Source: Brachionus manjavacas (lineage: Eukaryota; Rotifera; Eurotatoria; Ploima; Brachionidae). From it: a DNA stretch of 64,000 bases. How positions within the stretch are numbered: position 1 is the stretch's first letter; the number at the start of each line of letters is the position of its first letter. The notes beneath the pieces were generated by a model, which was not told where the DNA came from, made no database searches, and was given only the letters and a program-made list of their open reading frames with translations. The stretch covers positions 682,001-746,000 of the forward strand of contig JAHQIY010000018.1 of assembly GCA_019054805.1 (NCBI GenBank), written 5' to 3'. The translations under genes were made by a program, and so were the position numbers. Shown here one piece after another: positions 844 to 61,910 of this stretch.

Positions 844-3800
844 ATGAGTAATAAACAAGCGGCATCTTCATACACATCGCCAAGCCATCTCTATGATACA
901 AAAACCCTACTATGCAAGAACAAATGCGGATTCTACGGCAACTCAATGCAATATGAAGGCTACTGTTCCATATGCTACCGGAAACTAAAGACAAACAAAT
1001 CCAACCATTCTTTTCCAACATTCATGACAACATCTACGTCATTTGACGACTCCACTTCGCTCTTAAAATCATCCCAATCTTTTTCCATTGATGAGAAAAG
1101 GTAATAAAAAAATTAAAAAAAAATTAATTAATTTAATAGAATAAAATTTGTTTGTTCGCTTTTTTACTTAGACTTAACAGCCAATATTGGAATGAGCACA
1201 CCAATTTGAGCAAGTTTTCGGCCAAGTCCGATAAGCGAAAAAATTCGGCTCTGAACAAAATATTCCGCCGGCCTTCTTCATCCACTGGGCCATCTGTGTA
1301 CCAACATCAGCACTCATCGCTCAATTTGGTGGACACCATGAGCAAAGTGGCCGACAAGGCCGTGAATTTAGTGGATCAGTCGCTCCAGTCAGGCATAAAC
1401 TCATTGAACACATCAAGTTCTTTTCAATTTTTGCCAGCACCCAGCTTGAGCAGTGAAAGTCTGGTCGACTTCATAAACACAATGAACCAGCTGCTTAGAC
1501 CAAGTCCGCCCTGCGCCGAAGTAAGCCCATCTTCTATTTTGCTCTCAAGCACTCTCAGCAAGACAAACGACAACAAATTCGCGGCACAAACAACCGAGAA
1601 CATACTCAAGGAGTTCGAAGAGAAATTTGGTCAAAATTTTCCTCAAGTGTACACTGACATGGTCAAGCAGATGAAAAGTTTTCTGGACAAATTTAAAGAA
1701 ATAGTTGTCAGGGACTCGGAGTCGGACTTGCTATCTGTGAACAGCAAGCACTCCGAAATGGTACAGGACTTCTACCGTAAAATAAACAAATATTTGATGA
1801 CCAGTGGATGGATAAAGCTCTACTTGGACAAGCTGTCGCTAGTCGCCAGGCCAAACTCTTTGACCAATGATTCAATTGAGGAAAATTCAGAAATTCACAC
1901 GAATGATGAGGATTCGGAGAAATTTTCCGAAGCTGTCATGATCATGGTCGAGTCTTACATAAACAATTGCATTTATGACCTGGTTTTTCCGTCTCTGATG
2001 AGCGAGTTCGAGGAACAGGACATTAAGCTGCAGAAAAAAATTCGCCGCTTCTACTGGATTACCAGCCAGATGATTGGCACTTGCATTGATGAAAATAGTG
2101 TGTTTTACAGAGACCCCTATGAGGAAGCAATAAATAGTAGGTTTTTATTTTTTTTTTAAATCAGAGATGTGTTAATAGTTCAGTTTGACTTGAAGCCATT
2201 TTTTAAGTATCTCTTCAATTTTGAATTTTAGAATTTTGGAATTTTTTCTCTTATTCAAAATTTTTATATTTTGAAAAAAGTTTGATAATTTTCTAACACT
2301 TTAAAGGAAATTTGAAGTTTACGATCAAATGTAAATATCAGATCAAAATTTATAATTTTTGATTTAAAATAAAGGTGTTTTTTATTAATTTTTTAGAACA
2401 AAAATTTTTGAACTTTATTTAAAAATTTTAAACCTTAAACATGATTTGTTTAATTTTTAATTAGGAAGAAATTTAGATGAATTTTTTTCTGAAGTAAAAT
2501 AAAATATTTTGAAATTTTGCAATTCAAAATTTAACTTTGTTTCGCTATAATATATTTTATAATATTAAAATATCATTTAAAGCCATAATTTGAATGTGGA
2601 TTTTAAATTGGTCTTAAATATTTTCAAGTAAAAATTTTTTAAAAATCAATTATAGATCAATTGGAAAAAAAAAGATTTTTGTTTTAATCAAAATAATAAA
2701 CATTTTGTGTTTAATTTAAAAGTTTGAAAAAAACTTTTTTCATCTTTTTTATTTAGATTTTAATCAAATAAATTTTGATCATGTAATCATGATCATGAAC
2801 TTCAAGTTGCCCACTTTAAATGGTTTTTGAAAGTAAAAAAGTTATGTTTGGAGAATTTCCTCAAGGATTAAAGTAATTTCTTAAGGCCGATATTAAAGGG
2901 AATATTTAACTCTGAAAATTGACCGTAAAAAAAATATCACACTAATTATTAAAAAAAAGACAAAAAAAAATTTATTTCCTTATCTAAATTACTTTCTTTT
3001 ATTTCATTCTTTTTTACACTGTAAACATAAAGCACCATTCATTTTTTTTTAACTGTTTTTAATTTTTTTTTGATTTTTTTGATTTATTTAAATCTGAAGA
3101 AGCATTAGCTCAGATTAACAAATAATAATTTTATTTGGGGTATTATAAATCGATCTCTTACATTACTTAAACGATCACTTAATAACATATATTATTATTT
3201 ATTTGTATATCTGTACCGAGCTAGAGCTCCTTCAGATTAAAAAAAAAAAAATAAATAAAAAATTAAAATAAAGTTAAATAAAATAAAATAAAAATAAAAA
3301 GTAAGAAAAAAATAAAGTTAAAATAATATAACTTAAAAAGTAGATAAATATTAAAATTAAAATTAGATAAATTTTGATAGAGAGTAACAGAATACATATT
3401 TTAATTATTTGATGATTCAGGAAAAAAAGAAGAAATAGTAAGGTAGCAAATTATTTTATTTTTTCTATTTATAATATTATTTATTCGATTAATTTGATTA
3501 ATTAACTGTCTCTAATAATAAATATTTATGTATCCTGAGTTTTTTTGTCACTAAATTTACTGAAGATGAGTATGATTATGATGAATATAGCTCTTAACTT
3601 AATTAATGAACAGTTGAAATTATCTCTTGATTTAATTTAATTATCTCCTGTGAGAGTTTTTTTTGTGGATATTTTTATTCAAAATTTCAAAAATTCAAAA
3701 ATTTTTTAACCAAAAAATGTCTAACCAACAATTGATACTCAGCTCTTTACCAAGACATTTGACTAGCTAGTTGTTCCTGTCCTTCCTTCTTTAAAGATCA

Positions 3801-6800
3801 TATTTGTAAGCATCTTGTTGGCTTGAGTATCAATCAGAAGCAGACAAAGAAGAGAGAGCTGTCAGCTTAATCAAAGTTCTAAAGCGAAAGATAACAGAAG
3901 TAGAGGAAGAAATTCCACAAGAAACAGTTATACCAACAAAAAAAAACAAAAAAACAATTGATAAGGAAGCTGAAAAAGTAGTGCAAGCATCAACCAGCAG
4001 TGGTATAAGTAAGAAAGTAGAAGCTCCACTAAAGAGAGGTAGAGGTAGACCAAGAAAAAACTTATAAGATATTATTTTATTTGAAATTATTTGAAATCTT
4101 TTATAATTCTTTTTTTTTAAATCAATTTAATAAATAAAAATAAGAGATACTTTAAGCAAAATCAGTTGCTGTTTTATTTAATTTAGGAGACAGATTAATA
4201 AATATAAGTTAAGGGTATTTAGTAAAATAAGAGATAGAAAAATATTAGTGATCGATTAAATACCTCCCATTTTATTTTTGGAAAAAATATATTTTTTTCT
4301 CTTTTTTTAATATTTAGATTAAATTTAAAAGATGATTTTTTTATCATTTGACTCAATTAAAAAAAATCTTATTATTTTTTTATTAAATAATTAATCAAAT
4401 CTGAAGAATATTACAATTTTTAGACAAATTGAAGTTTATGATCAAATGTAAATTTTTGATTTAAAAATAAGATATTTTTTTGTAATTTTTTAAATCAAAA
4501 ATTTTTAAATTTTACTAAACATGATTTGTTTAATCTTTAATTAGGAAGTAATTTACATGAATTTTTTTCTTAAGTAAAATTAAAACTAAATCAATATTTT
4601 GAAATTTTGGAATTCAAAATTTAACTTTGTTTCGCTATAATATATTCTAATTAATAATTAATTAATTTGGTTGCTTTAATGTGGATTTTAAATTTGTCTT
4701 TTATATTTTCAAGTAAATATTTTATAAAAATAAATTAAAGATCATTTTGAAAAAAAAATGTTTTTTTTATTTAATTTAAATAATATACATTTTGTGTTTG
4801 ATTTAACAGTATTTAAAAAAAAACTTTTTTCATTAATTTTAGATTTTAATCTATTTGAGTTTTGATCATGTAATCATGATCATGAACTTCAAGTTGCCCA
4901 GCTTTTCAAGAGATATAAAAAGTAATTTAAATTTAACAAATTATCCTGATCCAAAATTTTCACAAATTTTGTTAAATAAAAAATAATTTTTTAAGAGATT
5001 AAGAAATTCTAAATTCAATTTTTTTTTATTTTGAAAAGCCGCATTTCTTTCACTCTGGAACTATTTTAAATAATAAGATAATAGCAGAAAAATAGCAGAC
5101 AAATACCGTGATAAAAGTGAAGCAATCTACTAACTTTCCAAAAAATTCCTAACCAAAAAGGCGTCTTTTACAATGATATAGGAACTCTAGTTTTAATTAA
5201 ATAAATATTTATTAAATCCCTGATTCATTTAATGATGAAAAGCAGACCTGGGCAAAAGTAAAAAAAAATCTTTTTTAGTTCTGTCCAAAGTTAAATCATT
5301 AGATTTTAATTCAAAATTTGAAGTCGAGAAGGATTTTACTCTAAAACTGTAATTTTTCAATAAATTAAATTTAGTCTTTTAAATTGCAATTAAAAAAGTA
5401 AATTTTATCGGTGATAAAATTTTCAAGAAACAAAAAAATTAATACTATCTTTGCTTTTTTAGATTATTAATTTGAATTAATGATTATCTACAACTTTTGG
5501 GTTAAATTATTTTTCACTCTTTTTTAAATTCTATTAATTTAAAAAAAAAAATTTAAATTCAAAAGACTTGACTTTATGACTTTTGAACAAAATTGTAACT
5601 ATTTAAAAAAAAAATTATCAGATTTTATTTTAATCAAAATAATACATTTACTTTCATTGATTAGAATTTATTTTTTATAATTAAAAAAAATAAAAAAATT
5701 GATCTAATTTTTTTCCTATATAAGTGTATTCCAAAAAAACTTAAATTAATATGGGTAAAAGGTTAATTTTAATAAAAATTAAAATATTATAAAAAAGACA
5801 GTTAATATACTTGTCAAAAATTTTTTAATATTTTTCACTGAATTTCTACTTAGATTAAGTAACTTTAAAATTATTTGAATTAATTAATTAGTTTTTATTC
5901 ACAATAATAAAGACTAATGAAATAAATATTTAGTAAAATGATCCTTTATTCGCTAGAAAAATTAAAAATTGATTAAAATAAAATCTTTCAAAAATAAAAA
6001 AAAAATAAAACGAATTATATAATTTGAACTTAAAATTAGATACAAATAAATCAAAATATTTGACATAAATTTTGTCCATCTTTTTAAATAAAATTTTTGT
6101 TTTTGTTTAGTCTTTTTTCTTGATATCTTAGATAGACATTTTCACTGTATCTAATTTTCTTGATTTATTTATAAATAAGTGAATATATTCTAAAAAAATT
6201 CAGAGTTCTTAAATTTATAACGTTTAATAACCGCAGGAGTTATTTGGCGAGACAACTTGGAATCAAATCAGTCTCAATAAAAAAATTAAACATAAAGTTA
6301 AATTTTTTCATTTCTAAAATTATTTCAAAAATTTCGATTCTTTGATTTTTTAAAATTATAAAAAATTGGGCTTTAAAATTTTTAGTTTTGTTTCTACTGT
6401 AAATTTTTAAAAAATTTAAAAAAATCTAAATGCATGTTAAAATTAAATAAAATATTTTAAATAAAGTTCAAAATTTTTACATCTAATTCAAAATTGAGAA
6501 AATATCATTCTCTTGTTTTAATCAATATCTAATGATTCAACCAAATCCTTTTTAAATGTAAATTATAATTAATAGCAAATTTATTAATTGATAAATGATT
6601 TTTTATAAATGATTCGGTCAGTCAAAAAATTGAAGAATGCTTTTGATTAAATTTAAATAATTTTTAAAACCTTTTTGAAAAAAAAATACTTGTGGTAATT
6701 AGAATTCGATCATATACCTCATGTTTACTTCATGAGCACCCACAATTTTGAAATTTAGATTTTTTTTGAAAAATTTAATTACTTTTTTTAAATAGATGGA

Positions 6801-12165: not shown

Positions 12166-12169
12166 TTAG

Positions 12170-12534: not shown

Positions 12535-12660
12535 TTATTTATTTGTTTTTCTGTACCGAGCATGAGCTCGCTCAGAATTAAAAAAAATAAAAATAAAAAT
12601 AAAATAAAAATAAAGTAAAAAAAAAAGATAAAAAGAGAAGATAAATAGATATGTAATAAA
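12535..12660 (-). repeat. Stem-loop-tail element, copy 2
   Basis: The core at 12551-12576 (GTACCGAGCATGAGCTCGCT) is flanked by TTTATTTATTTATTTG on the left and AAATAAAAATAAAATAAA on the right, as in the other copies. It sits exactly between a MULE remnant and a Tc1 remnant. Confidence 0.7.
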
Positions 12661-18514: not shown

Positions 18515-18660
18515 TTCATTTATTTATTTTTTACCGAGCAAATGCTCCTTCAGAATAAAAACATATGGAAAAACTAAAAATAAATTTAAATAATATAAAA
18601 TAAAATAAAAAATGAATTAAAAAAAAATAGATAATTCACTTAATGAAGAAGAAAGAATAA
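18515..18660 (-). repeat. Stem-loop-tail element, copy 3
   Basis: The core at 18532-18553 (TACCGAGCAAATGCTCCTTC) has TTTATTTATTTT before it and an A-rich run with AAATAAAATAAA after it. It lies inside the outer inverted-repeat element, so it inserted later. Confidence 0.65.
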
Positions 18661-30584: not shown

Positions 30585-33500
30585 TTAGAAATTTGCTATA
30601 TTCAAATACGAGTCATCGGTTTTAGTCGCGGTGAGCACGGGCGTTTGCTCGTGCAGCCTAGGCCGTTTGGTTGATGAGATGAGCGCGGAAGGCGATATTT
30701 GACTTGTGGAACTGTTCGTTGCTTTATTCGGACTAATGTTCTTGTCACTATTTACACCAAATGGAATTTCAATGTCCAAGCTATCGGTTTTGTTGTTGCC
30801 ACATGGAGAACTAAATGCAGGCTCATTGGCAGCTGTGGAACTATTTACAAAATTCTCTTTTATAAGTTGCTCATCGTCGCTTTTCTTGAGGGCCTTGGTG
30901 AGCGGCTCGTCGATGGCGGGCGATTTCATGCTTTCTTTGGCAGCCAGATTGGGCGCCGGGGATGGCGCGGGGGTCTGTGGCTGTTGTTTGACGACGGGGC
31001 TGGGCAGCGCGTAGTCGCCGCCCGACAGGAGATCGTGGTGCGATGGAAATATCTGGTTGAGGATGTTCGAGCTGGACGGAGGCTCGCCAGTCGGGTTGCC
31101 AAGGGAGGCCGCCGAGAACGAGGGCAGCTGAGCGCCAGAGGAGTTCCAGTGCAGAATGGACTGCAGCTCGTTGGCTTCCAGAGAGTTGGTGAAGTTTTTG
31201 GGCGAGCTGTACTGGCTGGGGCGCATGTAGGGCATTTTGAGAAAGTCGGAATTGCGCGCCGACGATGCCGACGCGTACATTGGCGCGCTGTGCAGCGAGG
31301 CTATCAAATTGGCTTTTTGTATACTCGGCTGCTGCATGTGGTGGCCTATTTGCTGGTTGGAACTCAAATGCATTGGCTGAGCGCTAGAAGAGCTCGGGTT
31401 TATCAAGTGCTGGCCAAAGCTGTTGTGGTACGATGCCGGGCTGCTTGACGGCAACTGGCTCGGACTCTCCAAGTGCTTCATGCCGCTCTTAAAATGGTTC
31501 GATATTAAACTGTTCATGTTTGGACTGTTCATGGCCAGCATTGACTGCTGCAGGTTACAATTTGACCCTTCGCGATGAAAAATTTAGATTTTTTTTTTTC
31601 AAGTAATTTTTAGTTTTTGATATTTTAATAAAAATAATTTTTTTGAGAAAAAAAATTAAAATTTTTTTTTTTGTTGACTGTTTTTCTTTTTAAATGTTTA
31701 TTCTTCGTTTTTGATGAAATTATTTTATGAATTTATTTAAAATACTTAAAAGAATTTTCTTTGATTAAAATATTTTTTTTAATAAAATTTTTAAAAGACT
31801 TAAATTAAAATAAATTTAATTTTGAAATAGCTAATTTTCAATTTAATTAAATTAACTGTTTCTCTTTTCTTGATATAAAGAAAATTAAGTTTAATTGCTA
31901 TTTTCTTTTTCTTTTTAAATGTTTATTCTTCGTTTTTGATGAAATTATTTTATGAATTTATTTAAAATACTTAAAAGAATTTTCTTTGATTAAAATATTT
32001 TTTTTAATAAAATTTTTAAAAGACTTAAATTAAAATAAATTTAATTTTGAAATAGCTAATTTTCAATTTAATTAAATTAACTCCTTCTCTTTTCTTGATA
32101 TAAAGAAAATTAAGTTTAATTGCTATTTTCTTTTTCTTTTTAAATGTTTATTCTTCGTTTTTGATGAAATCATTTTATGAATTTATTTAAAATACTTAAA
32201 AGAATTTTCTTTGATTAAAATATTTTTTTTAATGAAATTTTGAAAAGACCTAATTTTTTTATTACCTATTTTCTCAATTTATTTTCTATTTTGAATCTTT
32301 TTCAATCATTTTTTTACTCTTCAATCTTGGAATTTGAAGAAAAAAATTTTAATTTCTGTAAATCATCAAAAAATATCTTTTAAATATTTAAATATTAATC
32401 TTTAGAATTAAATGTAATTTTGAAATAGCTAATTTTAAATTTAATTAAATTAACTCTTTCTCTTTTCTTGATAAAAGGAAAATTAAGTTTAATTGTTATT
32501 TTTCATTGATTTATTAGTGTGTTCTCTTCGAGCATAAAAAAATTAATTTTTCCCTTTTGTTTCATTTAAACCTAAAAGAAACTAATTTTTTTTCAAAATA
32601 CTTAAAAAGTTAAATGTACTTAGAAATTACTATTTATCTAATTTAAATTATTTTTTCTTCTTGATCGAAAGAAAAAGAAAGTGAAAATTTATTTCCTTTC
32701 AGTTTTTGAGGTAAATTATTTTTCAATTTTCAATTTTTAAAAAAAAATAAATTTAATTTTTTTCTATTTTAATTTAAAAAAAAATATACAGTAAAAATTA
32801 TTCAAATTTTTTTTATTTATTTTACAGAGACGATACCTGAGTTAAGTGAATTGGTGTTGTTCCGAAGCTGGTGAATAAGCGATGGCTGGAGAGAACTGTG
32901 GTGGTTCAGGTGGGCTGGATCGATCATTGAATTGGACAATTGCAGTGAATCGGAGTGCAAGCGGTTGAATTTTGCTTCTTCTTTTTTTTGCTGTATAGTG
33001 TCCGGTGATGCTTGTGACGAGTAGGAAGACGACGAGGTCGATATACCGTCGTTGTCTGATCAAGAAAAGAGAGTTAATTTACAACAGAAGATTCATCGAA
33101 TTTTTACCATTGAAAGTTTGCTGCTGGTGGTGCTGATGATGGTGGTGGACTTGATGCTGGGACTGCTGTGTCTGACCATGCTGATGATGATGCTGTAGGT
33201 GATGTTGGTGCAAGCCAGCATTGTTTCCGTTCATGTGCGTCTGCATCGGGTTCATGGACGGCATGTTTAGGAGACTATTGTTGTTCAAGTCATAACTAGA
33301 CAGCTTTAAACACAAAATTAGAAAAAAAAAATTTTTGCTGCACCGGCACTTACCGGGTTTTGGTACGGGTATTTGTTGTGGTCGGGCGAGACCGGCATGT
33401 CATCATCGCCCGAGTCATCGTCCAGTCCTTTGCAATCTCCACCTTTTTTGTTCAAAATCTACAGCAAAAAAATGAAAAAAAATGAAAATTTTTTTTTTAG

Positions 33501-41899: not shown

Positions 41900-41970
41900 T
41901 TTTCTATTTGTTTGCTGTACTGAGCTAAAGCTCCTCAAATAGAATAAAAAAATAAAAATTTATTTTAACA
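41900..41970 (-). repeat. Stem-loop-tail element, copy 4
   Basis: The core at 41915-41938 (GTACTGAGCTAAAGCTCCTC) lies between TTTCTATTTGTTTG and AATAAAAAAATAAAAA. A diverged, short copy. Confidence 0.55.
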
Positions 41971-43506: not shown

Positions 43507-46500
43507 TCAAATATAGGTAGTCCTGTGCGTCACAAACCTGTTCTTATCGGCCAGGCCCGACTCTATATTAATAGTCTTGCGCCTGCCGCTGACCAAGCTC
43601 TCCACCCGCTTGCTCTCACTAGGCCTCTCGAACTGCTTGCGTATATTAGGCACACTCCACGTCACCCCAGCCAACTCCAGCTCGTCCAAACACCTGCTCC
43701 TCGAACCACTGTCATTATTATTGTCGTCCATGCTCCCCCCTTTACCACAGCCACCAGTGTCCACACTCGGCCTATGCTCTTCAACAACAGGCGCCACTCT
43801 CACTCCACTCACGGCGCTCTTCTTCACACCAGCAAAACTCTGCTTGGTAGAGACAGCAATCTTCAGCGGCTTGGACTCCTCTTCATCGTTTTTTAGCGAC
43901 AAACTCCTCTTGACCATGGAGCGCACCGGACTGCTCTCCTCACTGAACAAATTGGCAACCAAACTCTTCGAATTGAACTGCTTGCTCTGATTCACAGTCA
44001 CGTAGACCATGGACGAGTGTCGCCGCTTGGGCGACTCGTCAGCACACCGGCTCAAATTGCCCACCTCACCACATCCAACCCGCACACTGCTCTTGAACAA
44101 ATGGCCCTCAATGGCCGCTTGGTCAAAGGTCACCTTCACTATTGACTTGCGGCTGGCGTGCAGCCGGCTCTTGGTCTCGGCCTTCTTGGTCTCGGTCACA
44201 GTTGACTTGGTGCTCGAGTGGGGCAGACTGTGGCACTGCTGCTCGTCGACTTTGTGCGGCGCCAGCGGAGCCATCGACTTGAGCGAGAAGCGCTTGGAAT
44301 TCTTTCGCAAAAATGTGTCCATCAGCTGCTCGCAGTTGGGCTGGCTGTTGGAGTGGCCGTGGACGGTGAGGTCGTAGCAGGCCGTGTGGTCAGTGTCCGG
44401 GTGCAGAGCGAGCATGCGCTTTTGCCGCTTCAGCTGGCTTTCTTCGGGCTTTTTGAGCGATTTCTCGCTCTCCGGGTCGCTGTTGGTCGTGGTCGGCACC
44501 GACAGGCCCGAGTCCACGCTCAGCGTGTTCGACGACAAGTCGTGTTTGCTCGCCTTGGGCTTGTGGAAGTTTTTCGAGTTCGATTTTATCTTGAACAGGT
44601 TTCGTTTGGTGAATGGTTTGTTTTTTTTGGCCTCGCAGACAATATCTTGGTCGTCGTCGTTGTAGTTGTCGTCGTCGTCGTCGCTGGACGCCTCGTACAC
44701 CGAGGACTCGTCGGCGTCGAAGACGAACTGGTGTGTGGTGGTGGCGTTGATGTCGCTGGTGGACTGGCTGGTGTGCGAGCTGACAGCCAAGTTGAGCGAG
44801 TGGGATGTGTTGCGCTTGGGCTGGCATAGGGACTCGTTGGACTTGGACACGTCGCTGTTTATTTCGATGAGAATGTGGGCCGGCTTGGTGAGCAGCGAGA
44901 GGGTGTCGGCGCCGAACAGCTCGGCCACGCTTTTGATCACAAACTCGACGAATGCGATCGACTTGAAGTTGGTCTCGACGTCGCTCGGCTTCTCGATCTT
45001 GTGGAATATGCTCGGTGCCACGCACACCGAGATGTTGTGCACGTCCATTTTGTTTACAGACGAGTTGCACGAGATCAGGTGGAATAAACACATAAAATGT
45101 TTCAGGCACACATAGTTCCATTTTGGCAAACGGTTCAGAATTCTTAAAGAAACAAAAAGATTAGTTTAAAAGCAAAATTTGTTTGTGTTTGAAAATGTGA
45201 TGGCAAGCAAAAAGCAACAACAAAAAAAAGTTAGACAAGTGACCAGTGGTCATCATCTTAAAAAATGACCAAACAATGGAAAACTTTATTTTATTGAAAA
45301 AATTACTTTTATAAAAACAAAATTAAATTTCGCTTGAAAAAAAAATATCTTTTTTTTCTGAGCCCTAAATATTGATTAAATAGATACAGAAAAATATTAT
45401 AATGGAAATAATATTATTTGGTCATTATTTAATGAGGTGACAAAGTTAATTTTTATTTTTTATTTTTTAATTTGCTTATCTGTTACGATCTAAAGACCTT
45501 TTAGATTTAAAAAAAAATTACATTTATTTTTAATTACTGGTCAGAAGGCTATTTTTATTGAAAAAATTACTTTTATAAAAATTGATAATCATTTAAATAA
45601 TAAAATCTGTGACGAGCTAAAGTTATTTCAGATTAAAAAATAAATAAAGTAAAAGATAAAAAAATATTAAAAAAAATAAATTTTGGATTAACTGTTTTCG
45701 TTTTTATGTATTTCCTCTCTCTTTCATTTAACATTTGGGAAAATATCCGAAAACACTCTAAATCTAATCCGCTGAAATAAATCATTTTTTCAACTACATT
45801 TTGATCATTTAAGGTAAATGTGAATAGATATTTAAGTTATGAATAATATATTATAGTTAACACCAGACTTTATTCATATGTTTAATTAAATTAAATTTTT
45901 AGCAAGTTAACAATCAAGATTAAGATGATTAAAAAGACTTCAGACAACCTTATATTTCGACTCAAAAAATATCCGAGTCTTTTTGGTCTTTTTTTGATTT
46001 TACCAAGGCCTTTAATAGGAAATGGCATGAAGTTCTCTCTAATAAACTAATTAAAGCTCCAACACTTGAATATCTTATCTTCTGGATTCGCTCATTTTTG
46101 TCGAACAGATCATTCTAAATAAAAATTAATGACTTCACATTTCTTTCACATCAGGTGTTCCACAAGGATTCATAATAAACGCCTTACTTTAGGATTTGTG
46201 AATTTAGGGACAAAGTACAAAAACAAAAATCTTAAATTAAATAAAATCAAATAAAATAAATCTTAAATGAAATAAATTTTTTACTTTGAGTCTAAAATTT
46301 TTTCTGCAAAATGTTTCAGCTGATACAAGATTTATACCACCCGAATTTGGTCTCTGCAAATAACTCTGCATTTTAATTTAAAATTTTTTTTGATTCAGTG
46401 CTTTTCAGACTTACAGAGTTTTTTGCAGAGACTAAATTCGGATGCTATTTTTTCCTTATGATGACGACCTGGCTATATTCTACATTTTTTGAAGAGAAAA

Positions 46501-49500
46501 GAAATCAAACGATTGATTAGGAAACTGATGCGGATTTACCGAGAAAACGAGGAAGGTGAATGAAGTTATCTGGTAGAAAACCTAAAAATAAGTAAGTCGC
46601 TATTATTTTTTCTCTCATTTTTTAATCAATTTTTTTTGTCAGACAATAAAGCCTTTTGGTCACACTAGTTTTTATTTTTGTCTCTTGAAAAAAAGTTTAT
46701 TTAATCAATAAAATAAAGTTTATTTATTTGCTTCCTTTACCAAGCTTTATAAATTATTAAAAAGTCTGTTCAAAAAATAATTTTGTCAGTTGATTAGTTT
46801 TTTTTGTCATCTCAAAAAGTTTTAACTCAAACTTTTTTGTGGAACACAAACAGTGCATTTAAAATGAAGCCATTACCATAAATAAATTGATTTTGTTTGT
46901 AGAAAAGTTGAGAGTCAATGCAGCATCCGGACCTGGTCAAATTCAAAAACTTAAAAAATTGATCCCAAAATTCTTTAGACGATATAATTCAGCTTTTAGT
47001 CTTAGTCTTAGGCAAGGTAAGATTTCCAAGTGTGGAAAAGTGCTAACCAAACTTGACTTAAGGCTAATGACTTAAAAAAAACTTTTCTGTAAACATAACT
47101 TTGATCTTCTACACCGCAATTAAAAATGATACCATGAAAACACTTTAAACATTCAAAAGTTATCATTTCAAAGTAAAATGCTAACATTAATTTAAAGAAA
47201 AAACATAAAATAAATTTTTTTTAAATAACTACTGTTATACCGTAAACTCGTGACCATTGCTCTTGGAACAATGTCAAAATTTGGGTTTATTCCATACGGA
47301 ACTAATACCATCGAAACCATGTTATAAAATTTTTTTATTTTTTTTTAGAATAAACCTTGACGTCTGACTTTAAACTAAGAGTAAGCGCAAAAGCTTGATT
47401 TTATTCTTAGAATAATTTCGAATTTATTTTTTGAATAAACTTAAAAAATTGTACTCTTAGAATAAATACAAAAATTAGAATAAAGTTTAAATTTTTATTT
47501 TTTTTAATTTCGAATTTAACTCTACAATTTTTTAAGTTTGATGGTATTAGTTCCGTATGGAATAAACCCAAATTTTGACATTGTTCCAAGAGTAATGGTC
47601 ACGAGTTTACGGTAATTGTTTTTCAACTTTATTAGACAAATTTTTCATTTTTTTTATTTTAAATTTTTTTTCTTAAAAATAGAAAATCTACAAAATAAAT
47701 TAAGATTTTCTCTAGCAAATAGTCTTATTCATTTATTTGTTTATCTGTACCGTAAAGCTTATTCAGATTAAAAATAAAAATTCAAAAGAGCAAATTAATA
47801 AAAGTAAAATACAAAAGAAAAATTTAAAATGAAAAATCTGAACAAGGAATGACCGATTCAAGTAGTGAAAGGAAAAAATAAACAATTGAAAAGTGTTTAC
47901 TCAACATTTTTTGATTAAAGTCCAAAACTTTTTTTTTACTATTTTCTTTTAATTTTGGTAAATTTTAAATATAACCTTTTAGCGGATCTGTTCTTTTGTT
48001 TATTAAAATTTTTTTTGTATTAAAAAATAAAAAATTCAACTCAAATATTTTAGAAAAATTTGAGAAATAAAAAATAGCAAAAATTATTTTCAAAATTTTT
48101 AAATTAAAACCTCGTTCAAAAAAACTAAAGTTTAAAATTTTTTTCATTGCCTCCAGATCCGTCATTAATTTATTTAAAACTAAAAAAAAAGGACAAAAAG
48201 ACAATTTTTATTCAAAAAAAAATATTCATTACTTACACTTTAATGGCTTTTAATTGTTGATCTTGACTTTTTACCGAAAGTGTTTTAACACAATCGTTAA
48301 ATAAACGATAGTCAATAATTCCGTCCGGGTAATCTCTTAAGAACTCCTTGGCACCGAAAAAAAAATAAAATTCCAAATAGAAAAAAATTCAAAATTACTT
48401 TAAGTAGAAGGGCAGCAATGTGAACATTCATTTCATCATAATCAAAAGCTTGATTGGAGTCTATTTTATCGCGATAGGTCTTTTTAAGTTTGGCACTGGC
48501 CGACTTGCGAAAAATCATCAAAGCATTGATTCCTTCTGCAGCCACCTTTTCCATTAGACTCATGATAGGCGCTGGCAGTCGGCAATTGGTGGCCGAGTAC
48601 GGCCCGCATATTTTCTCCAGTTTAACGCCAAACAAATGCGCCCTTTTCAGCTTGTGATACAGTGGCCTGAGAGTGGACGTAGCTATGCTAGAGCTAGTCG
48701 AAATGCTTTTCTTGGAAGATTTAGATGTCTCAGTAATTCCTTGGTGCACATGATGCAGGCTGTTGCTTCTGATCGAATTGATGTAAGTTTTACTTTCCCT
48801 GTTCTTTTTGGGCAACAGAACTCCGTCCAGATCCAAGAGTGAGTCCAGATTGCGGTTCGAAGACGAGTTCTTGCTCCAGAACATTTTTTTCCTAAGCCTG
48901 TACAGCTTGTCTGTGTCTAGCAAAAATTACTTTAGCTTAATCTTGAGCCTGATTGTTGACTTACCATTAGGCGCAGCACTGGCGCCTTTGACTGGTGCAC
49001 TTGATTTTGTCTGCATTTCAGTTGAATACTTTTTGTTGTCAATTAGAACAAATTTGTAGTTGTTGTCGTTTTCTTCGATCAAAGTGGCTCCGGTTTCTCT
49101 CAACGAGTTCATTTTAATGGCATAGGGAAACTCGTGTCCTGCAAAAGAATCAACAATTAATTTAGGATTCAAAAGAGTCAAATGATCGCACCTATCAGAG
49201 GTATTAGGGGCTCATTAGCCGATATCTTGAGCCAAAGTTGATGCCTATTGTCTCCAATGTCACTTTCTAGATTGAACAAACTTTTGCATCTGGCCACTAG
49301 CTGCAGCGCTGTTTCGTCTGGCTTCACTTGGACTGTTTTGGTCTAAAATGACCAGAAAAAAAGGTAAAGAAAAGATGGGTGGAAATGAGAGTTTAGTACA
49401 TAGCACTGGGAAAATTGGGTGGGAGCTGTGGTGCCCGAGTTGTCCGTGTTGTAGCTGATTTTTATGTTCAAAATTGAATTTTCTTCTTTTTCTTTTTGAA

Positions 49501-52500
49501 TTTGGGTGAGACTTGAATTAATTTGAGTAAAAAAATTTCTCTAGTCTCCAATTTAAGTACTTTTTCAGCTTGTTCAGCCACAGATGTTTGTCTTCGGCGT
49601 TCCTGAAGTCCAGTATGTAGTTGGTGGCAGGTGGCCAGCCTATCACTATCGATGTATTTGCCTTGTATTGCCAATAAATTGCGTCGAAGCAATCACCTAG
49701 CCAGATATCACTGAGCCAAACTCTATGCTTTATCTTAAAATTGTGTTCGTTCCTTTCGAAAATGACATAAAAAAGATTAGATTTTTCTTTCAAACCATGA
49801 TAAGACTTTTAGAAAAGTGTTTTTTAGGCTATTCGTGATATTAACTTTTAGTTAAAAAAATAATCCTTGATAAACAAATCAATAAAAATTTTAAAAATTT
49901 ATTTTTATAACTCATTAAACTTTGATTGAAAATTTTTTTTTAAATGTTTGGGCAAAAAATTAGTCCTTGATAAATAAATCAATAAAAATTTAAAAATTTT
50001 GTAATTTATTTTTATAACTCATTTAGCTTTGATTGAAAAAAAAATTTTTAGTAGCTAAAAAAAATTAAATTGTTTTTTTTTTAAAATAAATTACGCCACT
50101 ATATTAATTTTAATACTATTAATTTAATAATAATTCAAAATTTTTAATGAATATTTAGAAAAGAGTCTAGATTGAAAAGATTATACCAAAAATAAGAAAA
50201 ACAGCTTCGGAAAATTTTTTTTATCAAAGGTAAAAAAATATTTTTGACCCTCAGAATTGATAAAGCCAACATATATCATCTGGTCTCCTTAATCTGATTT
50301 ACACAATGGAATGCAATTAAAAGCTATTACTTTACTTATTTACCAAGATTTTGAACCAAACATGGAAAATTTTGATATTTTTCGGTTTTTTTTTGTAAAT
50401 ATTCTCCGATTTACCTAATAACACCTTTTTTACCGAGTACGAAACTTCACAAAAATCTTGACAAATTATTTTTTTTAATTTATTTGTTTATCTGTACCGA
50501 GCTAATGCTCTTTCAGAATATAAAAATATTTAAAATAAGATAAAGTAAAAAAAGATAAAATAAAATAAAAAAGATAAAAATAAAATAAAAAAGATATATT
50601 GTAATAAATTAAGGTATAAAAAATGAGTATCCAAATAATCAGATTTTCTTTTATTTTAGGTAAAACTTACAACAATAGAAACTTTTTTTTTCTTAAACAG
50701 ACTTTTTTTTCTTTTTTAATTACTCTAAACTTTAAAAAGGGAAAATTAATAATTTTATAAATTAAAATAAAACACAAAGACCTGACCACCACTACAACAC
50801 TGTTACTTCATTTGGACATTTTGAAAATATATTTAAAAAAGTGCTAGTAACCAAATATCTTCATCAAGTCCTTAATTTTGAATTAAGAGCCTATGGTTAA
50901 AAACAGGTCTAATTTCATTTTTCAGACACTAGCATTAACTTATAAAAGAGTAATTTTATACTTTTATAAATATGAGGGTATTTATTATGCTCCAGTTAAA
51001 GTCAAAGATCTAATAATTTCTATTATTGATAAAGATAACCAAGAATGGCCAGAGAGTGCTGAAGAGGAAACAATCAGTCTCGAATTTTTTTGAGAAAATT
51101 AAAAAAATGTTTGATAATTTTTTATTTTAAATAAAACTGAATATTTTATGTCTAAAATGAAAAAAAATACTGAATTTAATTTTAACCTAGTAATTAAAAA
51201 TTTATATTAGACATTCATGGCTCCAGTATTTTTATCTGAGAACAAGATTTTAAAAAAGGCGTTCAAATAGAATTCGGATAAAAAAAGATGAGAACTCCTG
51301 GACTTAAGTGATGTTTAAATATCAAATAAAAGATGAACATCATTCATTTTTTATCAATTTTTTGATAAACATTTAAATTTAATAGAAATGAGTTTAAAAA
51401 AAATAATTTTCTATTAAACCAAACTTTTTATTTTTAAAAACTTTAAAAATGATTAAATAATTAGTCGGCATAATGAATGTTGTATTGAATTTAGACTTTG
51501 AATTCCTAAGTAACCTAGTATATTTGATTTAAAATAATGTGCACCATTGTCATCTGCAAGGCAAGGAATTTGACAAATTTACTTTAGTAATTATTCTTGA
51601 ATATCTAACCTTGAAGTTAAATCATTAAAAATCTAGATTTTAGATGATTCACAGACCTTGGGCAAAAATAATTGAAAATTTTTAATTAAATTTAGAAAAT
51701 AAGACAATAGAATTAAAATATCATAATCTGAAGGATTTATTGTTAAGACATTATGATGGGTCAGCGTTTTTTTCATTAAAAAAATCAATTCATGCTAAAG
51801 TAATCTCAAAGTTGATCACTTAATTATTTTCTTTAATTTTGACAGATTTTTCTACCATCCTTCTAAGTTGATTCACCTTAAGTGTTCTTAACAGCTTAAG
51901 AATTTAAAAAATCACTATTTCTCATGGGATTTTTTTCAATATTTTACTAATACAAATAAAAAATGTTTACGATTGATTAGATTGACAATTGAAATCACTT
52001 TACTTTGTATAAAGACTAGATCAACATATTTTTTTTTGCTAAATTAACTTAAAGCTCTAATTAAAACACCATTTAAATTGAATTTTAATCAGCCCTTGTG
52101 AATCTCTGATACCCAATTTTTTTTCGCTAATCTGAGTTTAGCTACAAATAATTTAAACAATAAATAAAATTATTTGCTCTACCCAAAACAAGAGATAAGA
52201 AATACATTAACAAAAAATATTTTGAATTAACTTTTTAATAAAACATGCAATTTTTAAAAAATAACTTATTTAAAAAAAGATTTGAAAGAAATGCTTGTGT
52301 TGACCAGTTTTGTTAAAATTTCTTTTACCAAATTTAATTATTAAAATGTTCAAAAATATTTTTATGACTATTTTAAATTGAAAAATTCTAATAAAAATCT
52401 TAAATTTTATCTCGCCAAATTATTTTATTATAATATTATTTATGCTTTTTTTTTAAATTTTTTTTTGTTTTTTTTCTATCACATAAAATACAATAATAGA

Positions 52501-55500
52501 TATCAACCAAAAAAAATGTTTTTAGGGCTTCTTCAAATTATGAAAAAAAGCTTTCCGGTGTTCGTTGCCCATGCCATAAACCTTGATCACATAGGAGACA
52601 AATAAAGTTAGAGAAGATAATTAGTAATATATTGTAAATTTTTTGAATAGGTTAATGGGCATTTTTTTCTCTCTTTTTCATCGAAGGTAAGCTTTCTGTT
52701 TAAAGAAAAAAATATATTATTTTTTACAAAAGCAATGATATAATCGACGTATGACTGTATGAAATTTTCTACGATTAAAGCGATGAATACTGGGCTTAAT
52801 TTTGTTTAAAAAATAGTGAGTGAGAAAATTTTATTTACGAAGGGATTAAATCAATTACACAAACTTTGAATGGGACACTTATAGGCGAGATTAAAATAAA
52901 TTATAATATAATAAATGAATGTAATTTTAGACAAAAAAATTCAGTCCTTATCCAGAATTTATTTTAGTTATTTATTTGGAATTTTCTTAATCATGTGGTT
53001 TAAATTAGAACTTGTTTACAAAGTAACACAATATTCCACTACTAATTAAAAAAAGATCACGGAAATGTGAATCACAAATGGGGATTAAGTCTCAATTTCA
53101 AAAATATTTACTTTTGTTTGGCTATTATCAGTAGATCGGTGAATAGAAATAAATGTCTCTCTTGCTTGCCATATTGCTTTGAAAAAACAAATAAAGTTTA
53201 AATCCGGTCAAAGAAATGAATCTTACATTCAGAAGAAGAACACTTGCTTCCATTAGCAAGTCTCTCGACGCCTTCAAACTACTCCACTCGTCCAAATCTA
53301 AATAAAAATTTTGAATAAAAAACATATTTTTTTAATTCAATAAAATTTAAAATTTAAAATTTTTTTTTTATTTTTTTACCCAGTTTTTTGTCCGAAGAAA
53401 TGGACGAAGACAGAGATCTTTTGTCATATTTTTTAGGCGAAGAGGAATTTATGATGTTGCTTAGTAGATCCAAATTTATGATGTCATGAATAGTCCGGCG
53501 TCTCTGGACCAACAGATGCTTGTTGACAAATGAGTTTTTGCCGCTGGACACGACACCGCCTCCACTGTTGCTGGTAGTCGGTCGTTTGGATATAATGGGT
53601 GTTTGCTGCACTGCGGAATTCAGTCTTTCGTTGATCAAATTAACATTGCCAGTTGACGAAAGTTCCAAGTTTGAGCCGAATAAATGAGATTTGTGCGACT
53701 CTGATCTAAATTGCTTAAAAAAATAAACATTTTAAAAGTTCACTTAAAAAAAGACTCATATTTTATGCAGCTACTAAATTTAATTTATTATTATTTTTTT
53801 TATTAGTTTATCTGTGCCAAGCTAAAGCTCCTTCGATTTAAAAATTAAAAGTAAAATATTAGGAAAAAAATGCAATAGAAAATAAAACTTGAAAAAAAAG
53901 AAATAAACAATGACAGGTACAAGATGTTTAAGTATTCCAGGGTTTGGGCAAAAAAAGAAGAAACTTTGTAACATTACATTTTTAATTGATATAAATAATT
54001 GAAAACTTAAATTAATTATTTTTATATCTAAGTTTTTTCGAAGAAATAATTAAAAAAAACAATGAAAAAAAATATTCTGCCGTAATTCAAACTCTTAAAT
54101 CACAATTTTAGTCTTAAAAACCTTCACATTAATTAATTCAAGTCATATGTATTTATTTAATTATTTTTTTAATTATTAAATTTCAAAAAATCAAAGGATG
54201 ATCAAAAAAAAAATTCCATCTTTGAAGAATTTGAATTTTTCCACAGTAACATTCTAGTTGATTAAAATTAATATCAAATTTTTTTATTATTTTATTTTGA
54301 TTTTATTTTGTGATCAAGCTCCTTCAAATAGTCAAGTATTACAAAAAAATGAAAAAAATAAAACAAATTTATTCCTTCATTAAATTAAAAAAAAAATACT
54401 AAAATAAATTTAGTCTTAAACCGTCTTGAATACTAAGCATAAAGTCCAAAACAACAAAGATATTTTTTTTAAATTTTTATGAAAATTAAGGGATTATACG
54501 AAATCACAAAACTTAATAATATATAGCTTTAGTCTAAATTTTGCTTTTTATTCGTAAAATAAAAGAATAAGCTTAATTATTAAAAAATTGAAATTTTCTA
54601 CACTTTAAAAGCAAAAAAAAAGATTTTGTAATTAAAAAAAATCAAAAAAATGATAAAATTTAGTAATTTTTTCGAAAAAAAATAAAAAATTTACCAAATC
54701 ATCATTTTTTTGCACAAAATTAACAAAATTTAATAAAATTTCAATTCATCATTTTATCAATTTTCTAAATGAAATTTCCTGAAAAAGTTAGTAGTAAAAT
54801 TTTGATATAAGCATAATTAATTTCATTAATTTTCGCCAAAAATTTAAAAAATATCAAAAAAGCCCACAAAAGAAGAAATGTTTAATATTTTTTAAAAATT
54901 TTTATTTTAATTTATTTTAAAAAGCCTTATTTTTATCAAATTGTAAAGTGTAAATACAAATAATTTACAACAACAAAAAAAAGGCCTCCGTCTTTTCACG
55001 TAAAATGTTCGAAAATAAATAGTAAATTTCTTTTTCATTTAAAAAAGCTCCATAGCAAACAATTTTTGTTGAGCTTTTAAAATTTTTGACTTTAATCATT
55101 ATTGTCAAATTGGTTCAGCATTTCCAAGACCTTAATTTTGAATTGGTTTAAGACACAAATAAATTTGATGCAAAAATTAAAAATTGGCTAGAGAGGTAAA
55201 ATTGGAAGCTTTCAACTTGCTGCACCAACTTGATTAAAATTTTCATTTAAACTCACTTTTTTAGCTTTGATTTTAGATTTGACAAGCTTACTAGAGAAAT
55301 TCTTATACTAATCCAAAGCCTGGTGTTGCAAAAGTATTTTTTTAAGGAATAAAAATAAATTTTAAAATTAAGTTTATCATTTTTATTGTTTTGCAGACAT
55401 AAATTTCAATGAAAGCAGGCCATTTATTTTTGAAAGGAAATGAATATCCGGTAAAGAAAGATGACCAGAAGAAAAAAATCTAGATTAAGTAAAGTGGAAA

Positions 55501-57440: not shown

Positions 57441-57723
57441 GCATGATTTTTGAAAATAGGAAAAAATTATATCCAGATAAGATTAGAGAGGGTAATGAAG
57501 ACATTTTAGTTAGTTGTAAAGGAAATTTGTTTATTAGGTTTCATAATGGGTCTTATTTTTCGTGCTATAATAATTTAATTGTTTGCTATAAAAAAATAAT
57601 GCTATAAGAATATTATATTTATTTTATTATTTTCTGCTATAATTCTTTATTTTTCTAGTATAATAAAAATACAAATGATATAAAAATAAAAAAAATAAAA
57701 AAAAACAAAGAAAAAAAGGTCAA

Positions 57724-57930
57724 CTATTTTCTTTTTGGTCTTTTATGAGTATTAGACCCGGTTGATTGATCTTTTGGTTTATTTTTTGAGCCAGCTGGTC
57801 TTCCTCTTTTTTTTGCAACTACAATAGGATCAATATTTTCTTCATTATCTGATACTGTTACAACAAAATCATGACGATCGCTTGAGTCAGTTTCTGTCAT
57901 AGTTTGGTCAGTTAAATTCTTATTATACAT
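57724..57930 (-). CDS. Small AT-hook ORF, possible transposon-derived
   Basis: A 68-codon minus-strand frame from an ATG at 57930. The first half is acidic (SDRHDFVVTVSDNEENIDP). It then has an AT-hook core KKRGRPAGSKNK and a basic end HKRPKRK. I see no partner exon with certainty. AT-hook tails also end the MULE remnant at 3.7-4.07 kb, so this may be a transposon terminus rather than a host gene. The flanks repeat GCTATAAT several times (57555-57660). Confidence 0.35.
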   Translation of the reverse strand: MYNKNLTDQTMTETDSSDRHDFVVTVSDNEENIDPIVVAKKRGRPAGSKNKPKDQSTGSNTHKRPKRK

Positions 57931-58139
57931 GTATCTTGTATATAAAAATTTTTACTCAGCTTAATTTATCAATTAATTCAAAATTGAAACCAAAATTCAC
58001 TAATTATTTAATGCTCAATTAATATATTGTCATTACATATAATTTTATAGCATCGGTATTTTTATTTTATATCACAGGTATTATTTATTATATCAGATTG
58101 TGTCAATTATATATCAATTTTGTTTTTTTAGTTTATATA

Positions 58140-58250
58140 ATTTACGTTAATTTTAAATATGTTGGGACAGGACCATTGGTTGAAAGACTGGTGAAAGAAT
58201 ACAAAGAAGGTTTCGAATCAAGATATATTGAATACCCAAGTCCATTGTGT
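58140..58250 (+). repeat. Older coding-like repeat interrupted by a LINE
   Basis: The plus strand reads VGTGPLVERLVKEYKEGFES then RYIEYPSPLC up to the LINE insertion point. The sequence resumes after the LINE at 59794 (AATTGCTACCTTACT). A second copy without the LINE is at 13600-13690 (minus). Family unrecognised. Confidence 0.55.
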
Positions 58251-59682
58251 TTCTATTTCAAACTGCTTTGCTCAAATCCTAGAAAAACTTATTCTAATTA
58301 ACTCCCCTGATCTTTACAAAGTTAGTAATAACCAATTTGGTTTTAAGAAAAATACCTCATGTAACCATGCCATTTTTGTATTAAAAGAAACAACTCTTAA
58401 CTACATCAATAAAGGCTCTGGATGTAGGATAGCATCTTTAGATGCAGAAAAGGCCTTTGACAAAATATGGCGTGATGGCTTATTCTATAAACTATTAAAG
58501 AGACTGCATACTTCCTACTGGGTATTGCTTAGGATTTATTATAACTCAGCACTAGCTTTTTTATCTCTTCCAAATAATCTAACAACTAAACCCTTTAAAA
58601 TTGAAACTGGTGTAAAACAAGGAGCTATTTTATCTTCTTTTCTTTTCAACATATATATTGATGATCTTATAATAGAATGCCTTAACAATGAGCTTGGAGC
58701 TCTTTATAAAAATCTTAATGTTTCTATCATTGTCTACGCAGATGATATAATCTTAATAAGCCCAGTTGACTCCCATCTACAAATGCTTTTGGATATTTGT
58801 GGATCTTATGGGAATAAATGGAGAATAAAATTTAACCCTAATAAAACAAAAGTTGTTAACTTTGGCACTCAATTATTTAAGTCGGTATTTCACCTTAATG
58901 GATCCGAACTTGAAGAAGCAAATCAGTTAAAATACTTAGGATTCATTATAGATTCTAATCTTAACCTTAATACACAGGCAGTTATAAATTTTAAAAAGTT
59001 CAGAGCAGCTTTTTTGGAATTTCATATCTTCTGCCTAAAAATAGTCCTACCTCTTCACCTAAATTCAAATCATTTATATACAAAACATTTTGCTTATCTA
59101 AATTCACATATGGTCTTGAGGCTCTTACTCTTAATTCGACCACAAAGGATTCAATAAATAAATTACAAAACAACTTAATTAGACAAATGTTTGGTTTAAA
59201 AGCCTACTGTCACATGTCACGAGTCTTAAAAGTACTAAAATTATTCAACTTTGATGAACTTTATCTATTTTCAAAACTAACTTTTATTGATACAATTAAA
59301 TATAATTATCTATCATCACAATTTTTAAAATATATGCTAAGTGACCCCCTTCTAATAAATCTTTTTCTTCCGACTTAGTACTTATTTCTAAGTACTTTAA
59401 AATTGAAACCTCAAAAATTTCAGTAAATATAAACCAACTTAAAGAAAATCTTAAGTTTAATCTGATTTCTAATGATGGTATATCTGATTCAATTTGGTTA
59501 TGTCTTTGCAATTTAAAATTAAAACATTACAAAACTCTCCTAAATGAGCTAATTCAAAATAAAAGAAATTCATGAATTTTGGTCCAAATTATCTTGCTTT
59601 CTAACTTTCATGCCTTTTTCTATTTTCGAACTAATGTTCCCTTTTTATTTTTGGAATTTTATTTTTAGGTAATAATTTTTCA

Positions 59683-59719
<37 letters not shown>

Positions 59720-59786
59720 ATTTATCTCTATTTTCTTTTACTTCTCCTTAAAGGAGGTTAATTCAATTCAATAAATAAATAAATAA
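58251..59786 (+). mobile_element. 5'-truncated LINE with target-site duplication
   Basis: ATTGTGT occurs at 58244-58250 and 59787-59793, a 7 bp target-site duplication. The body encodes a reverse transcriptase from FAQILEKLILINSPDLY and NNQFGFKKNTSCNHAIFVLK, through SLDAEKAFDKIW, GVKQGAILSSFLFNIYIDDL and the catalytic YADDIILISP, to LKYLGFIIDS. Two frameshifts follow (near 59025 and 59350). The C-terminal frames continue FTYGLEALTLNSTTKDSINK and end KTLLNELIQNKRNS. The 3' UTR has a 30-nt A run (59688-59717), a palindrome CTCCTTAAAGGAG (59744-59756) and a tail of AATA repeats. The endonuclease domain is missing, as in 5'-truncated copies. Clade: CR1/Jockey-like by motif style. Confidence 0.92.
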
Positions 59787-59939
59787 ATTGTGTAATTGCT
59801 ACCTTACTATCTCTTCTTTTTTTCCTGAAACTTGAACTATTTAAAGATGTGCCACATGTAACAATCTTTTCCAATTTATGTTTTCAACTTTCATTTTTTT
59901 AGCTTATTTACTCTATTTTTATTCTTTTTTTTATCTAAT

Positions 59940-60034
59940 TTTATTAACTTTAATTTTAATTTATTTTTAACTTATTCTGAAGGAGCTCTAGCTCGGTACA
60001 GAAAACAAATAAATAAAAAAAATAAATAATTATA
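59940..60034 (+). repeat. Stem-loop-tail element, copy 10 (only plus-oriented copy)
   Basis: Read on the plus strand: a T-rich body, TTCTGAAGGAGCTCTAGCTC, GGTACAGAAAAC and the tail AAATAAATAAAAAAAATAAA. It lies 150 bp after the LINE end at 59786 and is clearest as a retroelement 3' end. Confidence 0.7.
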
Positions 60035-60074
60035 TCATTTTATTTATTTTTATTATAGCAAAGAATTAAAATAT

Positions 60075-60640
60075 TAAAGCACGAAAAAATATAAGTCTTT
60101 CATAATTGATCAAGATCTTAATTTTACTAAATTCAAGTTAATAGGAATTATATTTTCTATCAAGAGAATTTTCTATCTTGCTACATCAGTAAAGATCCAG
60201 TTTTTTAAGACCTTTATCCTCCCGTATTTTGACTATTGCTCTGCGCTTTTATGCTTTTTTTCAAAAGAAGCAATAAATAAATTAGCTAAGAGTTATTATA
60301 TCTCTATCATAAAACTTATAAATGTTAAGCTTGAAGCAAACAGCTTTAATGTGATAATAAAACGCTTTAGAAAAGTATGGTCTTTATTCATTTCAACATC
60401 GAATTTTTGAAAGGATGCTAACTTTTTCTTATAAATGTCTATTATGGATCAATTCTCCGCTAAATCTAAAAGAAAAACTAAAGAAAAATGACTCAAGAAA
60501 TTTGAATTATATTTAAGGAACAAAAATAACCTTATTATATCAAAAAGTGGAAAAAAACATTTGAACATTTTTATTCAAGATTAATAAATTGCTTTGTGAT
60601 CAAGAGATCAATATTGAAGTTTTCAACGATTAAGCTTTCA
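60075..60640 (+). pseudogene. LINE C-terminal remnant
   Basis: The frame reads IIDQDLNFTKFKLIGIIFSI then KRIFYLATSVKIQFFKTFIL and PYFDYCSALLCFFSKEAINK. Stop-interrupted and frame-shifted coding-like sequence follows (FSFQHRIFERMLTFSYKC, NLRNKNNLI). The KIQFFKTFILPYFDYCS block is characteristic of LINE ORF2 proteins just after the RT domain. Broken and 5'-truncated. Confidence 0.8.
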
Positions 60641-61309
60641 ATTTTCAATAACATAAATTTAATTTACACAGATTTTGTTTCAAAATTTGAATTATTTAAC
60701 TTTAAAAGCTTGTTAAATTTTTTCAAATAACTATTAAATCAAAAACTCTGTTCGATTTTTATAAATTTTTTTATATTTTTTATATAAATTTTTTTTTAAT
60801 AATCAATTAAAAATATTAGCCTATTGATTAACCTTGAATCTATGTCTATTTTAACTCTGAAATGAAGGCGCATCAGCTCAGAAAAGATAAGCAACCAAAT
60901 TAATTTTTAATTTGTTTAATTAGTATTTTTAACTGATCAATCAAATAAAAAAAACAAATAAAAAAAATATAAACTTTAGGTAATAACCTAAAACAAGCTT
61001 TTTTACGTTCACAAAATTTTAGCAATTTTAAAAATTTTAATTTAGACTTGTAAACTCTTTTAGAAATATTATTTTTTTTAAAAAGAAATCAATTGAGGAA
61101 TTTATATTTATTTTCGTATTTTCTAAAGTATTTTGATTTAATTTCTTGTAAAAAATTTTCATCTAAGACTACTAATCAATAAGTTTTCACTATTTTTTAT
61201 GGCATTGCAGTAAGGTTTTTCTAAAATAAATCTTTTGTGATATAATAAATTTTTACACATTTATTTATGATATTAAAATAAGTTGGACAGCTTCATTTGC
61301 CATTCAATT

Positions 61310-61630
61310 TCCAATTTAATTCGTTTAGAAATTGTAGCGATACCGTCCTCTTTTGTTTATTTCCCTTACCAACTTTTTATCAATTGATCTTCTTAAATTT
61401 AGAGTCAAACTTTTAGCATAATTCACATCATTTACCAGTCCTATATTCTCAATCTTATACATTTGGATCAAGTCACCTCTTAATCAGCGTTGCTCTAAGC
61501 TAATCAGATCTAAATCTCGAAGTCTTACTTCATAAGGCTTCTCTTTAACCGATTTAATCAATTTGGTTGCTCTCCTCTGAACCTTCTCAAGAATATTTAT
61601 GTCGTTTTTTAAATATCTTTGAATTCATCA
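61310..61630 (-). pseudogene. LINE C-terminal remnant, same family as 26.04-26.54 kb
   Basis: The minus strand reads NILEKVQRRATKLIKSVKEK, RLRDLDLISLEQR-stop-LRGDL, IQMYKIENIGL, and KLVREINKRGRYRYNF-stop. It shares LEKVQ-R, RGDLIQMYKI, LTLNLRR and R-INKRG-YRYNF with the plus-strand fragment at 26040-26543. At least two stops are present. Confidence 0.8.
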
Positions 61631-61794
61631 AACATTTTATTGCATGTGAAATTTTTCTACTTTCTATTCTGAGGCTTCAATAATATCATTGTTTGATAGA
61701 GAATCTTGAAATTCGTTTTATTGAATCTCAGTAAACAGTAATTCATCACTTAAAGAATTCATCTTTAAAAATCTTTTTTAAAGGTTTTATTTTT

Positions 61795-61910
61795 TTATCT
61801 GTTTATTAATTTGTACCGAGCTAATGGTCCTTTAGAATAAAAATATTTAAAAAAAATTAAAATTAAAGTTAAATAAGATAAAATAAAAAAAAATAAAATG
61901 AAAAGAAAAT
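61795..61910 (-). repeat. Stem-loop-tail element, copy 11
   Basis: The core at 61811-61835 (GTACCGAGCTAATGGTCCTT) follows TTTATCTGTTTATTAATT and precedes AAATATTTAAAAA and AAATAAGATAAAAT repeats. Confidence 0.65.

Follow-up and report, generated by a model that had tools for sequence, protein, structure and literature searches.

Within a 64,000-base stretch of the Brachionus manjavacas genome (the window, C18:682001-746000, with a G+C content of 22-34% in 4 kb steps), a short core motif recurs in scattered copies. We consider it highly probable (about 85%) that this core represents the hairpin at the 3' terminus of a family of long interspersed nuclear elements (LINEs) with several subfamilies, whose activity in this genome is, or until recently was, very high; at least 10 of the 11 scattered window repeats are explained in this way as one thing. 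The family, termed LINE-A (LINE-A, LINE-B and LINE-C are labels local to this analysis), is probably a new addition to a familiar class of retrotransposons. An earlier note on this DNA had proposed that the repeats are 3' ends of a LINE or of a short interspersed nuclear element (SINE) sharing its tail; the LINE part of this agrees with the linkage of the core to open reading frame 2 (ORF2), the common 3' end with 5' truncation and the target-site duplications in the cleaner copies described below.

The LINE-A element and its linkage to the hairpin

LINE-A is about 4.3 kb long and consists of ORF1, ORF2 with an APE endonuclease and a reverse transcriptase (RT), a T-rich 3' untranslated region (3'UTR), the hairpin motif and an (AAAT)n tail. 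In copy L019 the RT domain (PF00078, 4.8e-43, L019:3043-4866) has R2 and L1 ORF2p as its nearest Protein Data Bank chains (E 4e-19 to 5e-15), and an APE-like endonuclease lies upstream of it (PF14529, 5.6e-16; PF03372, 1.7e-10; L019:1961-3115); the scanned ORF2 pieces gave no match to any RNase H family. By eye, two C-X2-C-X4-H-X4-C motifs are present in ORF1 of L019 and L017, for which Pfam returned no match. LINE-A presumably resembles the Jockey and I groups of APE-type LINEs in its APE and RT domains, its ORF1 CCHC motifs and the character of its RT motifs. The alignment of L017 with L019 begins at one common base, and their flanks are unlike.

Using ORF2 as a query we obtained at least 122 scored places with 91-100% amino-acid identity, and the downstream DNA was followed at the 19 of these listed on contigs C1-C3. 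All 19 carry the hairpin 160-250 bp downstream, which answers the earlier question of whether the core is joined to a LINE ORF2. On C1 the distance is 181-235 bp in 7 of 7 places; on C2-C3 the listings of the core placed it at 160-250 bp in 7 of 12, and the remaining five, of which 400 bases each were scanned with a covariance model of the hairpin (43 positions, built from 30 copies), all contain it at E <= 1e-12. None of these five belonged to the training set, and their loops read UUUA, UUUA, CCUA, CCUA and UUUU.

The polarity of the motif follows from its two sides. In the printed copies similarity runs on across the A-rich side, where an all-against-all comparison showed 4,376 bp shared at 98.7% between L017 and L019, 2.7, 2.5 and 2.0 kb for L010, L021 and L028, respectively, and many shorter lengths. 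On the TTTATTTGTTT side the copies carry (ATTT)n repeats of variable length and then pass into unlike or unique DNA. With the body conserved towards the A-rich end and a variable repeat at the opposite one, the printed core has to be reverse-complemented to give the sense strand, and the AAAT repeats are then the 3' tail; the resulting order is T-rich 3'UTR, UUCUG-AAG-GAGC-NNNN-GCUC-GGUA-CAGAA and ACAAAUAAAUAAAU tail. The order first suggested (T-rich body, stem, about 10 nucleotides, AAATAAATAA tail) fits either strand, since the motif is nearly palindromic and both read T-rich, stem, A-rich; taking the printed core as the sense strand was mistaken, as only the complement places body and tail properly.

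Abundance, truncation and target-site duplications

Across the whole genome (114 Mb, 61 contigs) a 20-base core was found at 2,512 places with at most 2 mismatches (1208 and 1304 by strand, p 0.058; control 0). The fixed flanks CTGTACC and CTTCAG around 12 free positions occur at 1,829 places (882 and 947; controls 0 and 1), and GAGC-NNNN-GCTC stands between them at 676 and 728 places on the two strands. On contig C3, four exact cores spaced 878-882 bases apart (C3:330087-332746) suggest a tandem array containing a LINE-A 3' end.

The copies share their 3' end and have scattered 5' starts, with 46 of the 47 inspected copies aligning to the LINE-A 3'UTR and 35 of the 46 aligned copies being shorter than 500 bases. 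Two of them (L008:1499-1523 and L011:4999-5023) are nearly only hairpin and tail, with 26-31 bases of body. Direct repeats of at least 10 bases bound 8 of the 46 unfiltered copies (17%), compared with 8.2% in mismatched controls, a weak signal. A filter requiring an identity of 85% or more and an unambiguous junction retained 14 copies (64 found, 61 aligned); in these the mean direct repeat was 7.9 vs 5.7, none of 300 permutations being as high; repeats of at least 9 bases were present in 4 of the 14 compared with 11.5% of controls, and the longest measured 19 bases (L023). The search for target-site duplications proposed by the earlier note was thus positive against permuted controls in the filtered copies and weakly so in the unfiltered ones. 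In L012, where a LINE-A copy is nested in a LINE-B, the two LINE-B pieces overlap by 10 bases, 7 of them identical. A common 3' end with 5' truncation and target-site duplications of variable length, the latter in filtered and nested copies, together with the RT domain and the APE-like endonuclease upstream of it, identify LINE-A as an APE-type non-LTR retrotransposon.

Conservation and predicted fold of the hairpin

The predicted fold consists of an outer CUG/CAG stem, an asymmetric internal loop AAG/GGUA, an inner GAGC/GCUC stem and a variable apical loop, with energies of -9.4 to -10.6 kcal/mol for four copies. Three of these, from subfamilies A1 and A2, fold exactly in this way and the fourth, L010, retains the CUG/CAG and GAGC/GCUC parts. 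Subfamilies A1 (L019) and A2 (L007) share 78% amino-acid identity in ORF2; at the nucleotide level their hairpins are identical at 25 of 25 positions, compared with 975 of 1271 over a stretch of ORF2 and 179 of 241 in the rest of the 3'UTR (around 76% about the hairpin). Against the more diverged L013 copy the corresponding values are 23 of 27 columns for the hairpin, 738 of 1000 for ORF2 and 146 of 234 for the 3'UTR.

Variation by position was counted in the first 100 listed of the 1,829 fixed-flank places. Departures from the majority letter number 1-5 per 100 at each of the eight inner-stem positions, compared with 6, 10, 40 and 30 at the four loop positions. A pattern one base longer between the flanks occurs at 6 places, 5 of them with a 5-base loop, one of which, in L051, is part of a LINE copy of type A2. 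Both U-A (9 of 29) and A-U (7 of 29) occur in the outer stem solely at the fifth pair, which is unpaired in the other 13. Purifying selection on the motif is well supported, and prediction, together with the way in which some positions vary and others stay fixed, suggests that it acts as an RNA structure. LINE-A therefore carries at its 3' end the conserved stem-loop and repeat tail of stringent-type LINEs, with the pairing predicted and without covariation backing.

Several observations weigh against a recognition hairpin at the end of a LINE. Some of the eight repeats in the unfiltered copies are tail-like AAAT runs, leaving that duplication test weak, and the filter was chosen after the unfiltered result had been seen. 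One ORF2-bearing LINE-A copy (L037, reverse complement, approximately 2940-3200) has lost most of the 3' arm of the hairpin and kept the tail. The folds are only modestly better than those of shuffled sequences (z -1.9 to -2.7), none of the 100 listed places has both partners of an inner-stem pair replaced, and the pair measures of covariation do not rise above shuffles, giving no support for pairing. The A1/A2 alignment has two other exact runs, one of which, at 41 bases, exceeds the hairpin, which is consequently not the sole conserved stretch. Conservation of the motif could also reflect a need at the DNA level or a transcript-end signal. The 41-base run lies around the end of ORF2 (L019:4756-4796) and may reflect conservation of the protein's C-terminus or an additional RNA signal.

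A possible role in recognition and alternative readings

By analogy with stringent-type LINEs, the stem-loop may be the element recognized by the RT, as the earlier note had supposed, and the hairpin and AAAT tail probably tell the copying enzyme where to start. The ORF2 protein would bind the hairpin on its own RNA and bring the AAAU tail of that RNA to the nick in the target, where reverse transcription would begin within the tail (target-primed reverse transcription). Slippage at this step would leave tails of variable repeat number, and frequent early stops of the enzyme would litter the genome with hairpin-bearing 3' stubs. More tentatively, and with the odds somewhat against it, the ORF2 protein might read its RNA in a mirror image of the L2 type, recognizing the two invariant stems and the asymmetric internal loop (AAG/GGUA) between them, with the apical loop left to drift in sequence and even in length, such that subfamilies differing in their loops stay cross-mobilizable.

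LINE-A resembles UnaL2, ZfL2-1 and ZfL2-2, stringent-type LINEs of the L2 clade, in its 3' layout, where a short repeat tail comes after a stem-loop (predicted in LINE-A). Retrotransposition of the ZfL2 LINEs was reportedly abolished by deletion or exchange of the stem-loop, and their ORF2 protein was found to bind the stem-loop of its own element, the loop being essential and deciding specificity while a stem swap was partly tolerated (PMC4176376). In LINE-A, unusually, the letters of the stem and internal loop are near-invariant and the apical loop is free in sequence and, at five listed places, in length. A 3' stem-loop and repeat tail are also common to plant L1-clade LINEs and SINEs, another likeness to LINE-A (PMC3747384). 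The stem letters of the plant elements vary, which the author of that study took as confirming the structure, and the loop UCU and the 3' CGAG flank are constant (PMC3747384); in LINE-A, in contrast, the loop varies and compensated stem changes were not seen. The same source gives TAA repeats as the end of the I element (PMC3747384). The 1,829 fixed-flank places constitute an abundant natural series of variants of what is presumably a recognition hairpin at the 3' end of a LINE; they show directly which positions are nearly invariant and which are free, and what a LINE RT recognizes becomes testable in a lineage outside the L2 elements in which it has been worked out.

The alternative that best survives, which we nevertheless regard as unlikely, is that the hairpin is a signal for the 3' end of the LINE transcript (termination, 3' processing or export), conserved because a defined RNA end is needed and not for the sake of the RT. 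It would account for the location of the hairpin at the 3' end, adjoining a tail with AATAAA-like repeats; the copies made of little but hairpin and tail (L008, L011) fit priming in the tail whether the hairpin serves the transcript end or the RT. Far less probable is a SINE that took over the LINE tail and makes up many of the copies, as the large share of short copies might suggest: nearly all of the inspected ones match the LINE-A 3'UTR and begin at scattered points, and no SINE with the same tail was seen among the 47 inspected copies, of about 2,500 places. A DNA transposon or miniature inverted-repeat transposable element with the core as one of its terminal inverted repeats, which opposed hairpin pairs such as window 3088/3199 and L026 4992/5040 could evoke and which the earlier note had named as fatal to its proposal, can practically be dismissed, because the spacing differs among all five opposed pairs lying no more than 700 bases apart (111 bases in the window, 48 in L026, 333 in L048, 507 in L045 and 685 in L016), the motif has a LINE ORF2 upstream and the bodies are LINE sequence. 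The L026 pair (L026:4992-5082) consists of two LINE-A 3' ends lying tail to tail, 48 bases apart.

Copies in the window

With at most 3 mismatches, the 17-mer pattern GTACCGAGCTAGAGCTC matched at 7 places in the window and at none in 100 shuffles. The covariance model gave 11 sites at E <= 2e-5, comprising 10 of the 11 listed in the earlier note and one addition at 3088-3125; since 9 of the 11 were in the training alignment, these scores are partly circular, the sites at 47733 (2e-5) and 3088 (5e-6) being those outside it. The remaining proposed copy, at 54308, shows only a AAGCTCCTTCAAAT stretch, has no model match at E <= 1 and is not recognizable as a copy. A weaker match is found at 45468-45510 (E 0.008), and an Rfam scan of the window at gathering thresholds returned no matches. 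The description of the flanks, TTTATTTGTTT-like DNA on one side and an A/AATAA run on the other, agrees by eye with 8 of the 9 printed window copies, the exception being 45609.

One copy on the minus strand (3185-3449, outer boundaries approximate) is a 5'-truncated member of subfamily A2 made up of tail, hairpin (3199-3241) and 3'UTR, with 98.8% identity to the 3' end of L007. The added site (3088-3125, plus strand, E 5e-6) is a degenerate hairpin copy opposed to it. Hairpin and start of the tail are likewise found on the minus strand at 12539-12581, a LINE-A 3' end with sense-strand loop TCAT (E 5e-10), at 50480-50522 with loop ATTA (E 5.5e-13), at 53800-53842 (E 4e-10) and at 61799-61841 (E 3e-9). 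Diverged copies on this strand comprise hairpin and tail start at 18517-18559 (E 1.5e-9) and at 41903-41945 (E 6e-7), where a LINE-A body is not alignable, the hairpin at 45595-45637 (E 3e-6) and the hairpin with an internal deletion at 47733-47772 (E 2e-5).

The strand bias first reported for the window, 10:1, corresponds to a binomial p of 0.012 and falls to 9:2 (p 0.065) once 3088 is added and 54308 dropped. As the genome-wide strands are near even, we take the bias as a local accident; among the matches listed for contig C1, a strand-run test gave clustering not above shuffles (P 0.14).

LINE-B, LINE-C and the nested insertion

The copy at 59976 that had been described as reversed is a real hairpin copy (59971-60013, plus strand, covariance model E <= 2e-5) and does lie 3' of the RT frame of the window, yet that frame belongs to a LINE-B inserted into a LINE-A copy. 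On the plus strand, the 5' piece of the truncated LINE-A copy (58173-58250, end of ORF2, 94.9% identity to L019) is followed by the LINE-B copy (58251-59786) and by the LINE-A 3' piece with 3'UTR, hairpin and AAAT tail (59787-60030), the insertion being bounded by a 7-base target duplication, ATTGTGT. The open frame at 58195-59157 starts within LINE-A sequence and was rejected as the LINE of the core, LINE-B ending near 59786 with a different short hairpin.

LINE-C, found upstream in L044, has 41% identity to LINE-A over 145 ORF2 residues. It was rejected as a second carrier of the hairpin: of 59 matching pieces, 33 stop at query positions 854-880, short of the hairpin, which lies at 1120 and is reached only by the query's own place. 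At C13:1188193 a LINE-C end is followed, 80 bases downstream, by a hairpin piece that is probably a separate insertion. Since LINE-B and LINE-C end without it, the LINE-A hairpin looks lineage-specific in these sequence comparisons.

The LINE-B fold is not better than shuffles (z -0.6). All 10 of the 15 LINE-B loci whose 3' end was displayed terminate in CUUCUCCUUAAAGGAGGUUAAUUC or a close relative and an AATA tail, the window copy with CTTCTCCTTAAAGGAGGTTAATTC and its AATA tail at 59741-59786. A short hairpin of its own, CTCCTTAAAGGAG, with an AATA tail occurs in LINE-B there and in L030, L032, L033, L035-L039 and L041, an independent case of a similar layout. Elsewhere in the window, a 225-base tandem repeat extends over 31681-32253 in 2.5 copies with 98% matches.

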